Assembly (NCBI GenBank): GCA_017432305.1
Contig: JAFRJK010000006.1
Location: forward strand, 1 to 64,000
Direction: 5' to 3'
DNA: 64,000 nucleotides
Origin: Candidatus Saccharimonadota bacterium
GTDB taxonomy: Bacteria; Patescibacteriota; Saccharimonadia; Saccharimonadales; Saccharimonadaceae
This document shows, piece by piece, positions 2,949 to 49,134 of this stretch. The notes beneath the pieces are model-generated. The model searched no databases. It was not told where the DNA came from and worked only from the letters and a program-made list of their open reading frames with translations. Positions within the stretch are counted from its first letter, which is position 1; each line of letters opens with the position of its first letter. A program made the position numbers and the translations under genes.

Positions 2949-4085
2949 ATGAGCAGACGAAGAACTAAAGGAGAGGGGTCAATCACCAAGCGCAAAGATG
3001 GGCGCTGGATGGCACGTTATCGCGCCACAGACGCTAATGGAGACCGTAGAACCTACGCAATCTATGCCAAAGCTAAAGAAGAAGCAGCTAAACTACTCCG
3101 TCAAAGACTCAAAGAGATTGACGATGGCGATTTTACGATTCGAGACGGCAGCACCCTAAATGGGTTTTACTCCTACTGGAAAAACGACCTCGCCCCAAAT
3201 TATCTAAAAGAGACCACCATTTGGGGCTATGACATGATTTTCCAAAAGCATATCTTACCCGTATTGGGGAAAAAGCGACTTACAGACATCAACCCTATTG
3301 ACATCCAAAAACTTATTACCAAAGTCAAAAAAACCACTAATTCCCCAAGACAATGTTATCACTGTCGCGACGCATTGTCATCAGTTTTGAAACGAGCACT
3401 AAAACAACGTAAGATTTACTATAATCCAGCCGCTGGAGTTGAATTGCCGAAATATAAGAAAAAAGAGAAAGTATTATGGGACTTAGATGAGCTCAGTCAA
3501 TTTCTTGAGACAGCTCGAAAACATAGTAGATTCTATGTTTTATACCTACTAATGGCAAACTATGGACTTAGGATGGGAGAATCATTGGGAATCCGGTATA
3601 GTGATATCGATTTTGAAACACGCGTAAAAGATGGCTGCGGTCTGATTCACATTCGTCAACAAGTCGTGATTCTCAATTATTCACCAACGATTTCCACACC
3701 AAAGACCGAAAGCAGTATCCGTGATTTAGTTATTACAAGAGAAATCGCAGACGCGCTAACTCCCCTAATGCTAAAGAGAAACCAAAAATGCGAGTTGCTA
3801 TTCCATACGTCCAACAATACCCCGATTTCTCCGTATAATCTAAGGAGAGATTTTAATCGGATTATTAAACTGGCAGGGGTAAAACACACTACTCCACACG
3901 CCCTAAGGCATTGGGCATGCACCGAAATGAACAGTTTAGGGGCTGACGGAAAAACCATCCAAAGTATTATGGGGCATAGTAGCTATAAGACCACTGCAGA
4001 CATCTATGAACATACGCGTCTCGACGATAAGGCTAAAGCCTCTGCAATTCTAAGTAAACGGATTTTCTCAGCCATGGCGGTATAA
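2949..4085 (+). CDS. Tyrosine site-specific recombinase (integrase)
   Basis: A 378-residue phage-type integrase that cuts and rejoins DNA at attachment sites through a phosphotyrosine link. The N-terminus (about 1-60) is a basic arm-binding region (GEGSITKRKDGRW...RYRA). A SAM-like core-binding domain follows at about 65-160, then the catalytic domain. Catalytic residues can be seen: Arg near 208 (NYGLRMGE), His317 and Arg320 (HALRH), His in the MGHSS motif and the nucleophile Tyr near 353 (ADIYEH). The set is complete, so the enzyme is probably active. It ends 98 bp before tRNA-Arg and pairs with the excisionase. It most likely mobilises the 1-4363 element; a role in the cassette system at 16.5 kb cannot be excluded but nothing supports it. 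Confidence 0.95.
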   Translation: MSRRRTKGEGSITKRKDGRWMARYRATDANGDRRTYAIYAKAKEEAAKLLRQRLKEIDDGDFTIRDGSTLNGFYSYWKNDLAPNYLKETTIWGYDMIFQKHILPVLGKKRLTDINPIDIQKLITKVKKTTNSPRQCYHCRDALSSVLKRALKQRKIYYNPAAGVELPKYKKKEKVLWDLDELSQFLETARKHSRFYVLYLLMANYGLRMGESLGIRYSDIDFETRVKDGCGLIHIRQQVVILNYSPTISTPKTESSIRDLVITREIADALTPLMLKRNQKCELLFHTSNNTPISPYNLRRDFNRIIKLAGVKHTTPHALRHWACTEMNSLGADGKTIQSIMGHSSYKTTADIYEHTRLDDKAKASAILSKRIFSAMAV

Positions 4086-16481: not shown

Positions 16482-16556
16482 GATATAATGAATTTAGATA
16501 GTATTTTGTAACTATCTTTACGTGTGTTAAGTTTACCGCTCTGCGGTAAACTTTTT
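16482..16556 (+). ncRNA. Candidate short RNA: promoter, hairpin, terminator
   Basis: TATGATATAATG (16480-16490) is followed by the hairpin AGATAGT/ACTATCT (16496-16517) and, at 16531-16551, GTTTACCG-CTCTG-CGGTAAAC with a T run. A transcript of about 60 nt is predicted. The terminator sequence also forms the 3' end of the leftward cassette that begins at 16533, so its origin may be linked to the cassette array. Confidence 0.35.
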
Positions 16557-16790
16557 TATGCAACGGATACGAAATCCGAATCCTCTATTTCCATAATTCA
16601 TGACAGCATAGAAAAAGGCACTTCCAAGATCAACATCAGTCCCAGTATTAAGATATCCAGCGGAATTTTCAGCACCTGCAATATATTCCCACCAAAAACC
16701 GCCAGCAGTTTTATTCATGATCGTACCCTTCGACCTGGCGTAATTCCCACCCCTCCAAAAATCCAATCGGAACAGAATTACTATAATATC
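16533..16790 (-). pseudogene. Silent FISUMP-like C-terminal cassette 1
   Basis: An open frame reads FRLDFWRGG, a variable middle (about 55 residues including FWWEYIAGAENSAGYL) and GFGFRIRC near its end. It stops at 16533 inside the terminator hairpin. The pattern FWRGGxY-G-W(x)(A)SS-RGxGxxIRC resembles the second half of the FISUMP (Fibrobacter succinogenes major paralogous, C-type-lectin-like) domain common in Saccharibacteria surface proteins. There is no start codon with a ribosome site, and an in-frame TAG lies in the linker upstream, so it is a silent end-cassette. It is head to head with cassette 2. Confidence 0.7.
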
Positions 16791-16825
16791 CTAATAATGC
16801 TCTGTAGTATTTTTGGAGGGGTGGG
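16746..16825. repeat. Head-to-head cassette sites S1 and S2 with linker
   Basis: TTTTTGGAGGGGTGGG occurs on the minus strand at 16746-16761 and on the plus strand at 16810-16825. The linker holds TACTATAATAT and GCTCTGTAGTA; the same elements recur in the linker at 17612-17699. The 16-mer codes for part of FWRGG in both reading directions outward. Confidence 0.85.
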
Positions 16826-17035
16826 GTATATTTTCTTGATGGTGGAGTTGGGTCTAATAAAGTTTCTTTCACTTCGTTTTATCATAATTATGCTGATACA
16901 CCTAGTAGTGCGCGTCTCTCACAATTTAACTCCAGTACTACCGGAGATGTCTGGCTGAACGTACTCGTTAATAGAGGATATGGAAGATTTATCCGTTGCG
17001 CAACGGAGAGACAACCCATCCCCACGATAGAGTGA
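16808..17035 (+). pseudogene. Silent FISUMP-like C-terminal cassette 2
   Basis: The frame immediately before the site ends in TAG (16805-16807). It then reads YFWRGGVYFLDGG, a variable middle and GYGRFIRCATE, with a stop at 17033-17035. The distance from the Trp codon of FWRGG to the stop is 73 codons, exactly as in cassette 6. The stop directly upstream means it cannot be expressed where it stands. Its 3' end meets cassette 3 at the palindrome 16992-17007. Confidence 0.7.
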
Positions 17036-17200
17036 AATCGATGTCTGGACTGTAGCTCCACCAGACGAGTTTACTGGCCTCGAATAGAAAGTGGAAGCAA
17101 CTTCGTTAGTAATGACCATATTTGAACGATGGCTATTTCTGCTCGTCCTGACAAAAATAGCACCATTATGGTCTAAATACCCACCCCTCCAAAAATATCA
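16940..17200 (-). pseudogene. Silent FISUMP-like C-terminal cassette 3
   Basis: Reading leftward from site S3 (17180-17195), TGA lies directly before YFWRGGYLDHNG. The frame continues through ASTFYSRPVNSSGG and ISLYRGDGLSLRCATD across the palindrome at 16992-17007, and an in-frame stop comes only at 16919. The FISUMP-like core therefore ends at the palindrome, and the rest is antisense to cassette 2. Confidence 0.65.
16992..17007. repeat. Tail-to-tail cassette palindrome
   Basis: TCCGTTGCGCAACGGA is a perfect 16-bp palindrome that encodes (I)RCAT on both strands and forms the common 3' end of cassettes 2 and 3. A near copy, TCCGTTGTGCAACGGA, joins cassettes 4 and 5 at 17421-17436. Confidence 0.85.
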
Positions 17201-17251
17201 ACAGAGCAATATTATAGTATTAGTACTCTCTTGGATTTTTGGAGGGGTGGG
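17180..17251. repeat. Head-to-head cassette sites S3 and S4 with linker
   Basis: The 16-mer lies on the minus strand at 17180-17195 and on the plus strand at 17236-17251. The 40-nt linker between them contains ATATTATAGTA and CTCTCTTGGA. Confidence 0.85.
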
Positions 17252-17512
17252 AATTATGCCTACACTGGCGGCGGTTTCTATAATCGCATCATCGATGCCT
17301 ATTGGTGGATGAATAAAGCTACAGAAAATATTAGAGCCGGCGATCTTTTCACATCCGTCCAAAGCCAAGTAGTATTGATTTGGGTCCAAGCTGCCAATAT
17401 GAGAGGAAACGGGTACTACATCCGTTGTGCAACGGACATGAATTCCATAACCTCTATTGTAATTGCCTTGCGGGTATACATGGGCATTACCAGAGCTATT
17501 AGCAGTATATGA
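17231..17512 (+). pseudogene. Silent FISUMP-like C-terminal cassette 4
   Basis: Reads LDFWRGGNYAYTGGG, a variable middle (YWWMNKATENIRAGDL) and MRGNGYYIRCATDMNS across the palindrome 17421-17436. It then runs on into sequence antisense to cassette 5 until 17512. TTG at 17231 could serve as a start only if the GGAGGGG within the site acted on something downstream; no ribosome site precedes it. Confidence 0.65.
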
Positions 17513-17660
17513 ATTAATATAATTAGCACTATTTGCAGACGAGGCAATACCAGATCTCCAAGCGCCATCTACATTTGGCTGGTGTATGCGGCCATTCCCA
17601 AGCTGATAAATCCCACCCCTCCAAAAATCCAATCGGAACAAAATTACTATAATATAAAGT
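17390..17660 (-). pseudogene. Silent FISUMP-like C-terminal cassette 5
   Basis: Reading leftward from S5 (17612-17627) it gives FRLDFWRGGIYQLGNG, then a middle with WRSGIASSANSANYI and NRGYGIHVRCTTD up to the near-palindrome. The upstream linker is almost identical to that of cassette 1 (GTTCCGATTGG), so these two are close relatives while their variable parts differ. Confidence 0.7.
17421..17436. repeat. Tail-to-tail cassette near-palindrome
   Basis: TCCGTTGTGCAACGGA: seven-base arms are perfect complements around a central TG. It marks the shared 3' end of cassettes 4 and 5. Confidence 0.8.
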
Positions 17661-17699
17661 AAAACTAATTATGCTCTGTAGTATTTTTGGAGGGGTGGG
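17612..17699. repeat. Head-to-head cassette sites S5 and S6 with linker
   Basis: The 16-mer is on the minus strand at 17612-17627 and on the plus strand at 17684-17699. The linker has TACTATAATAT and ATGCTCTGTAGTA as in the first pair, but is a little longer. Confidence 0.85.
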
Positions 17700-17909
17700 A
17701 GTTACGATAACTACTCGCCTGATTCCGTAGGGCGTATTACAGCGCGTAGGGTGAATCTTGAGATATGGTTGAACCGAGTAGACTCTAGTAGCGATGCTCG
17801 TTATGCGAATGAGTTTGATTCCTATCTATATAATTCGACGTCCTATATTGTGACGTCTTCCCAAGCTTATCGTGGACGAGGGATTACTGTCCGTTGCGTA
17901 TTGTTGTGA
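17682..17909 (+). pseudogene. Silent FISUMP-like C-terminal cassette 6
   Basis: TAG stands directly before YFWRGGSYDNY. The frame continues through a variable middle (RVDSSSDARYANEFD) to YRGRGITVRCVLL and TGA at 17907-17909. It ends 3 nt before the stop of the convergent galU gene, so the array abuts galU without a spacer. Its 73-codon length equals that of cassette 2. Confidence 0.7.
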
Positions 17910-33049: not shown

Positions 33050-33270
33050 TTTAATGCTACACAACGGATAGAAAACCCCATACCACGATAATCTCCACCT
33101 TGGCCATTAACATGTGAAGAAGGACTCTGTAGCCAAGATGTTAAGTGTTTATCAGACTCATCACTACTTGCGAACAGCCCCCTCCAATCTCCACCCGTAG
33201 TGCGAGTACCAACCCTACCTAGGACGCGACGATATTGCCCACCCCTCCAAAAATCCAACGGAGCAAGAAG
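33050..33270 (-). pseudogene. Isolated silent FISUMP-like cassette 7
   Basis: Reading leftward from the 16-mer site (33238-33253): APLDFWRGGQYRRVLG, a variable middle with WRGLFASSDESDKHL, and DYRGMGFSIRCVA, after which the frame runs on into the tRNA-Val gene. This is the best single match to the FISUMP C-terminal half (G-WR-ASS-RGxGFSIRC). It has no start codon or ribosome site of its own. It is a lone copy, 16 kb from the array, inserted between tRNA-Val and the next gene. Confidence 0.7.
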
Positions 33271-48149: not shown

Positions 48150-48380
48150 ATTTTGAAAAACGCTACGCAACGGATAGTATACCCACGTCCACGCATGTTG
48201 CCTGCCTCCGGGTAGAAGTGAGCGGTAGAAACTTCAAGATGCCCATCAATATTGACGGTATAACGTACATCGGATGAAGCAGCATAAGAGGTGCTCAATC
48301 TTAACGCTTCCATACGACGCCAAATCCCCGCCTCCGTATTAAAATAACCCCCACCCCTCCAAAAATCCAACAGTGAACTA
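48150..48380 (-). pseudogene. Isolated silent FISUMP-like cassette 8
   Basis: Reading leftward from the 16-mer (48350-48365): LLDFWRGGGYFNTEAG, a middle with WRRMEALRLSTSYAASSDVRYTV, and NMRGRGYTIRCVA near 48163, after which the frame continues into the ABC permease gene. No start codon with a ribosome site is present. It lies between the permease and the promoter of tRNA-Phe, a position like that of cassette 7 next to tRNA-Val. Confidence 0.7.
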
Positions 48381-49118: not shown

Positions 49119-49134
49119 GCCACCCCTCTAAAAA
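49119..49134 (-). repeat. Lone degenerate cassette site
   Basis: On the minus strand it reads TTTTTAGAGGGGTGGC, 14 of 16 bases identical to TTTTTGGAGGGGTGGG, and is preceded by GTCGGA as real sites are preceded by TTGGA. No cassette follows; it sits between two divergent promoters. It looks like a scar of a lost cassette. Confidence 0.55.

Follow-up and report, generated by a model that had tools for sequence, protein, structure and literature searches.

Results

The cassette array in the window

The window is the whole stretch of DNA that was analysed, 64 kb in length, and it forms part of contig C4 of a genome (G000) whose whole assembly comprises 748 kb in 8 contigs. As seen in Table 1, an array of six silent cassettes lies between convergent genes for a phosphoglycerate mutase and a nucleotidyl transferase. 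Each cassette starts at an exact copy of one 16-mer, and the frame which begins there with FWRGG reaches an IRC-type motif 63-71 residues downstream. The cassettes are paired head to head and tail to tail, and tail-to-tail partners abut without a gap. A stop codon is present one codon upstream of the frame in cassettes 2, 3 and 6. The six start sites, their FWRGG-to-IRC frames, the paired arrangement and the stop codons had been described in a sequence-only reading of the window, and that description proved accurate. Promoter-like sites are no commoner in the array than in shuffled sequence.

Table 1 Cassettes and other features of the window
Feature	Position	Strand	Remarks
Phage-type tyrosine recombinase gene	2949-4085	+	PF00589 (E 1e-25), PF14659; no cassette start adjoins it
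Silent cassette 1, FWRGG...IRC, 67 aa	16560-16761	-	exact 16-mer at 16746; frame open
Head-to-head spacer, 48 bp	16762-16809		identical at C3:384 and C3:51069
Silent cassette 2, 63 aa	16810-16999	+	exact 16-mer at 16810; TAG one codon 5' of frame
Silent cassette 3, 65 aa	17000-17195	-	exact 16-mer at 17180; tail abuts cassette 2
Head-to-head spacer, 40 bp	17196-17235		1 difference from copy at C7:66273
Silent cassette 4, 64 aa	17236-17428	+	exact 16-mer at 17236
Silent cassette 5, 66 aa	17429-17627	-	exact 16-mer at 17612; tail abuts cassette 4
Head-to-head spacer, 56 bp	17628-17683		same at C3:23177; one difference at C1:87917
Silent cassette 6, 71 aa	17684-17897	+	exact 16-mer at 17684
Further library cassette, single	33061-33253	-	beside tRNA gene; exact 16-mer at 33238
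Further library cassette, single	48167-48365	-	upstream of tRNA gene; exact 16-mer at 48350
Degenerate start site, 2 mismatches	49119-49134	-	no cassette; probably a remnant

Together with both of their start sites, the first and third spacers of the array form strong hairpins (z -6.8 and -7.7, respectively). The cassettes flanking the three copies of the 48-bp spacer (C4:16746, C3:384 and C3:51069) are unrelated to one another. In the single cassette at 33061-33253, the sequence ...APLDFWRGG is common to the cassette and the expressed gene described below. The degenerate site was obtained in a search of the window that allowed 3 mismatches, for which 0.52 matches are expected in shuffles. At the corresponding locus of the congener G003, the same convergent gene pair stands ~12 bp apart with zero cassettes, and this counterpart is an empty site.

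A library distributed over the genome

The 16-mer has 103 exact copies in the genome, 52 forward and 51 reverse, and 115 copies if one mismatch is allowed; its reversed control pattern gave 0 matches. Among the other 173 genomes of the genus, only four carry a copy, one each and with one mismatch. The inner 11-mer occurs 104 times in G000, and 103 of these occurrences are the full 16-mer. Since FWRGG can be spelt in 192 synonymous ways (2 x 1 x 6 x 4 x 4), the start is conserved as DNA. A start kept only for its amino acids was ruled out, as none of the 103 copies shows a synonymous change. The viral contigs searched do not contain the extended site.

The layout was analysed from the 101 exact sites present in the stretches around sites. 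When the expressed variable 3' end of the target gene (VR) and a contig-end copy are counted in, the sites form 29 clusters of one to eight, and the cassettes are distributed over six contigs. Orientation mostly alternates, with 32 head-to-head junctions (29 of them with 39-59 bp spacing) and 27 tail-to-tail junctions; 6 of the 8 apparent exceptions to alternation hold a one-mismatch inverted site between. Head-to-head spacers are identical at unlinked loci though the adjoining cassettes are unrelated, and spacers with their paired start sites fold as strong hairpins. On these inverted repeats, Rfam gave only weak plant or animal microRNA-type matches, which were taken as chance. The cassette tails mostly terminate in ATCCGTTGCG, and many of them meet in the palindrome CCGT(T)GCGCAACGG. 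The sequence GGAGGGGTGGG was considered as a candidate G-quadruplex-forming sequence. The clusters are intergenic; of the 24 that could be scored, 12 are flanked by convergent genes and no more than 2 by divergent ones. The library of ~100 cassettes of ~0.2 kb occupies roughly 3% of the 748-kb genome.

Two other features were recorded in the assembly. A 944-aa frame with two FISUMP-type matches (C1:95805-97670) adjoins the cassette cluster at C1:93222-93863; the FWRGG 16-mer is absent from this frame, which is perhaps an unrelated paralogue. A separate repeat, with the inverted repeat ACTCTTTTTCTATACC...GGATAGAAAAAGAG, breaks the assembly at contig ends of C1 (two), C3 and C7.

Coding content of the cassettes

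The FWRGG frame is open over 180 nt in 96 of 99 cassettes and interrupted in three. Each of the other five frames is open in 1-15 of the 99, with a shuffled expectation of 3.3. The sequence-only reading had noted strongly divergent middles between conserved ends, and this holds throughout the library: mean pairwise DNA identity of the cores is 45.7%, compared with 42.4% after shuffling, which is near saturation, and the 16-mer is invariant. In the protein alignment, FWRGG, Y7, G12, G59 and the final R and C are kept everywhere or nearly so.

The assignment of the cassettes to FISUMP was likewise borne out. A profile of the cassettes matched the C-terminal 60 residues of the FISUMP domains in related proteins (hhalign 97.5%, E 6e-12), and the product of a cassette corresponds to the final ~64 residues of a FISUMP-type domain. 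Single cassettes gave no match to family models, and the PDB sequence search gave none. As regards a putative C-type lectin fold of the variable domain, the predicted structure of the FISUMP domain of a congener is a low-confidence model (mean pLDDT 40).

The expressed gene and its retroelement

A full-length gene containing FWRGG, which the sequence-only reading had expected elsewhere in the genome, was found at C8:9291-10856, continuing on C5:1-201. The part on C8 encodes an N-terminal hydrophobic segment, a FISUMP match and ...NGAPLD-FWRGGLYSRSNGG..., and runs off the contig inside the variable part. Contig C5 opens with a 72-bp overlap to C8 and completes the gene, which ends ...IRCVARQ-stop. 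The protein is predicted to be membrane-anchored. Its match to TIGR02145 (E 8e-9) is slightly below the curated cut-off and its match to PF09603 is weak; the target of a congener matches PF09603 with E 1e-14. A second, identical VR copy is seen at C6-end/C8-start. Because the assembly breaks at the VR, contig overlaps are the basis for both the C8-C5 join and the second copy of the VR. The expression locus also breaks at the VR in the congeners G114 and G030, as expected for repeated sequence.

On C5 the target is followed by a 331-aa ORF, a reverse transcriptase (RT) and then an inverted template. The RT of a diversity-generating retroelement (DGR) is marked by SQ in motif 4 and by YxDD. The RT found here has the motifs YVDDF and IGNLTSQ, conserved in congeners, and matches Pfam RVT_1 and the PHROG reverse transcriptase (E 2e-76). 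A putative Avd-type accessory ORF stands between target and RT in 5 of 5 loci compared, with a match to bAvd in one congener only, and a weak one (E 0.21). The VR is the 3' end of the target gene. In the body of the VR, all 18 differences from the template fall at template adenines, and four further, non-adenine differences are confined to the 3' end (IMH/IMH* type). The expression locus has the standard anatomy of a DGR, and the expressed VR is at present derived from the template, not from a cassette. A DNA hairpin 3' of the VR was no better than in shuffles. Between RT and template, the stretch L051:2440-2523 (contig C5) holds an inverted, 5'-truncated VR end with a GC-rich element, and this copy is cut exactly at ATCCGTTGCG.

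The DGR is invisible from the window because the expressed locus sits on other contigs. The sequence-only reading had overlooked that the expressed gene is the target of a DGR which has left its imprint in cassettes.

Relation of the cassettes to the retroelement

The cassettes keep the exact start GGATTTTTGGAGGGGTGGG and end ATCCGTTGCG of the VR. Their flanks are also those of the VR, TTGGATTTTTGG at the start and ATCCGTTGCG at the end, and not those of the template, CGAAGTTTGG and ATTCGTTGTG. Flanks of VR type rather than template type indicate that the cassettes are copies of the VR, or exchange partners with it, and not direct products of the template. The GC-rich element 3' of the VR is absent from all cassettes; within the stretches around sites, its occurrences are limited to VR1, the C8-start copy, the template and one remnant.

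Two cassettes on C7 represent the present template in adenine-mutagenised form, being 95% and 88% identical to it at non-adenines and only 63% and 44% at adenines. An origin of all cassettes from the present template was ruled out, as only these 2 of ~99 fit. Apart from these two, the cassettes of G000 lack the adenine-confined differences by which they could be classed as DGR VRs, and none has the GC-rich element as a retrohoming signal of its own. The ~92 remaining cassettes are older or otherwise diversified and retain a fainter imprint of the DGR. In them, the columns in which the template encodes Asn are the most variable (entropy 3.66 vs 2.30) and show an excess of NNY codons (p 2e-11; p 0.007 in fourfold boxes alone). 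For simple DGR products, most cassettes have diverged too far and vary too much in length, so that some further source of change must be assumed.

Copying between sites has occurred, as the second, identical VR copy at C6-end/C8-start already shows. The cassettes at C2:219 and C5:62772 are 99% identical and have different 5' spacers, and two cassette pairs are mosaics with mainly their 3' halves in common.

Libraries in other genomes of the genus

The cassette profile matches 107 of the 117 genus genomes sampled, and relatives of the RT are present in 67 of them. The RT alignment search gave 80 loci, the nearest named relatives being ruminant-gut Saccharibacteria, and a single-protein RT search of named genomes gave no match.

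The genome G114 has dispersed single cassettes with another constant start, the same start being found in its own expressed target. Compared with the template, 20 of its cassettes are changed at 437 of 1000 adenines (44%) and at 69 of 2480 other bases (2.8%). Two identical cassette pairs are found at unlinked sites in G114, and its cassettes have ragged ends and unique flanks. A template-like repeat with Asn at all variable positions was also seen in this genome (C60:8338-8511); it does not adjoin the RT, which is encoded ~28 kb away on that contig (C60:36049-37137).

The draft genome G030 has 99 cassette matches and no RT match, and the start of its expressed VR is identical at 145 of 146 positions to a silent copy with a stop codon upstream. 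In G070, VR-like cassettes stand in same-strand tandem, ~220 bp apart (C6:17500-20700 and C23:76000-77991), an architecture different from the alternating arrays of G000 and G030. G027 and G085 carry a related DGR with few extra copies. In G054 and G089, many matches to the VR profile lie inside long open frames (~400-680 aa), as though complete target paralogues, and not silent cassettes, had become numerous. Libraries thus recur in the genus, with ends specific to the species, and those of the congeners are independent.

Discussion

The array in the window had been interpreted as a reservoir of six cassettes for one expressed FISUMP protein, whose ends would be swapped by inversion or gene conversion. 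The target gene and the FISUMP match support the first part of that interpretation, except that the library is genome-wide and not limited to six members. One gene is expressed, and its variable part and the promoterless partial copies have the same ends, as is typical of silent cassettes. In our judgement, a DGR is probably coupled to a genome-wide silent archive of VRs, with gene conversion as the means of sequence exchange between archive and expressed gene. The array in the window would then be one cluster of the silent library for a single membrane-anchored FISUMP-type protein. The RT would copy the template, with random adenine changes, into the 3' end of the gene, producing new binding surfaces. 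Recombination would copy VR sequences into promoterless intergenic cassettes with exact start and end retained, and gene conversion, for which the constant ends would serve as anchors, would return cassette sequences to the expressed VR, a switching that may be going on at present. Selection on expressed recombinants would keep the cassette frames open. The 3' shared end is only ~10 bp, so that the homology at this end is marginal for ordinary recombination.

The most serious rival regards the cassettes as debris, dead-end VR copies that arose from stray DGR cDNA or through recombination, were scattered in the manner of processed pseudogenes and play no part as donors. The ragged ends and unique flanks of the G114 cassettes would also suit such stray insertion, three cassettes of G000 are interrupted in frame, and transfer into the expressed gene was not among the copying events seen. 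Neutral copies so diverged should contain stops and broken ends, however, whereas 96 of 99 frames are open despite nearly saturated middles and the 16-mer is invariant in 103 copies; open frames at such divergence are the strongest counter-argument. The mosaics and identical spacers also point to continuing exchange. We therefore regard a library of mere dead-end copies as unlikely.

Much less credit can be given to a shufflon, in which a site-specific recombinase would invert segments between head-to-head 16-mers and so change the order of the cassettes and fuse different ends to the expressed gene. The inverted identical sites, the strict alternation and the hairpin cores would agree with it, and a phage-type tyrosine recombinase is encoded at 2949-4085 of the window. 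That gene, however, is ~12 kb from the array and has no sites beside it, and the sites, which are part of the coding frame, coincide with the VR border of the DGR itself. Inversion of the shufflon type is unsupported because the expressed gene (C8/C5) is neither in nor adjoining the array and because the cassettes are on six contigs, so that inversion would rearrange the chromosome. Of the two mechanisms originally put forward, gene conversion fits better. It is equally improbable that head-to-head pairs (~0.45 kb, bounded by ATCCGTTGCG) are non-autonomous transposing units with the coding content as passenger: identical spacers at unlinked loci, tails joined in a palindrome and the empty site in a congener would suit such units, but a passenger would not retain open frames and fold-defining residues, the cassettes next to identical spacers are mutually unrelated, partnerless single cassettes exist (33061-33253 and 48167-48365), and no link to a transposase was found.

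The proposed coupling of a DGR to a silent archive can be compared with several known systems. With known DGRs it shares the RT, the template, the adenine-specific changes and a surface-type protein whose C-terminus holds the VR. DGRs with target genes at a distance from the core are known in Treponema denticola (PMC4891356), and a DGR clade is restricted to CPR/Patescibacteria (PMC8144416). The remote VRs in these papers lie in target genes, whereas the ~100 VR-like pieces found here are devoid of a start codon, a promoter and an N-terminal part and also of the GC-rich 3' element of the VR. In Borrelia vls, 15 silent cassettes feed vlsE, whose variable region lies between 17-bp direct repeats (PMC9159922). 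As in vls, there is one expressed gene with cassettes of the variable part only and short invariant ends (17 bp in vls, 16-28 bp here). In vls the cassettes stand in a single uninterrupted array next to vlsE, on a plasmid, whereas the ~100 cassettes found here are spread along the chromosome with alternating orientation, have diverged much further and are linked to a DGR; switching has been proven for vls and is proposed here.

In Mycoplasma genitalium, MgPar repeats feed mgpB/mgpC (PMC2169797). These too are truncated copies of one expressed surface-protein gene, spread through a reduced genome and built of variable blocks that constant ones separate. Exchange takes place both with the expression site and among repeats, and the present library, as proposed, resembles them in all these points. 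There are nine MgPar loci with 78-94% identity, compared with ~100 short cassettes at near-random DNA identity here, each of them a single domain tip, and with a DGR present. Shufflons share the alternating inverted segments encoding alternative C-termini, but here there is no adjoining dedicated recombinase, the expressed gene is outside the array and the units are genome-wide. The open-access literature searched on DGRs and silent cassettes yielded no account of a silent VR library.

DGRs are seen as forgetful, because each retrohoming event overwrites the previous variant. If the coupling proposed here is true, a silent VR library would give a DGR storage and recall, as in vls and MgPar, fed by targeted hypermutation, and it would explain why ~3% of a reduced genome is kept as non-expressed coding pieces. 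A wider proposal, which we advance tentatively and with somewhat less than even confidence, is that of a heritable library fed by a retroelement: the DGR would write, recombination would file the variants in ~100 intergenic slots, and later recall would follow, an arrangement which may have arisen repeatedly in one genus and may outlast the loss of the RT, as G030 suggests. The organism may be able not only to invent new binding surfaces but also to keep them. The library would single out the tip of one surface protein as the part under the strongest diversifying pressure, its diversity serving perhaps for host-cell recognition or phage escape. The purpose of the DGRs of CPR would thus become a question that can be approached by sequencing the expressed VRs of a population.
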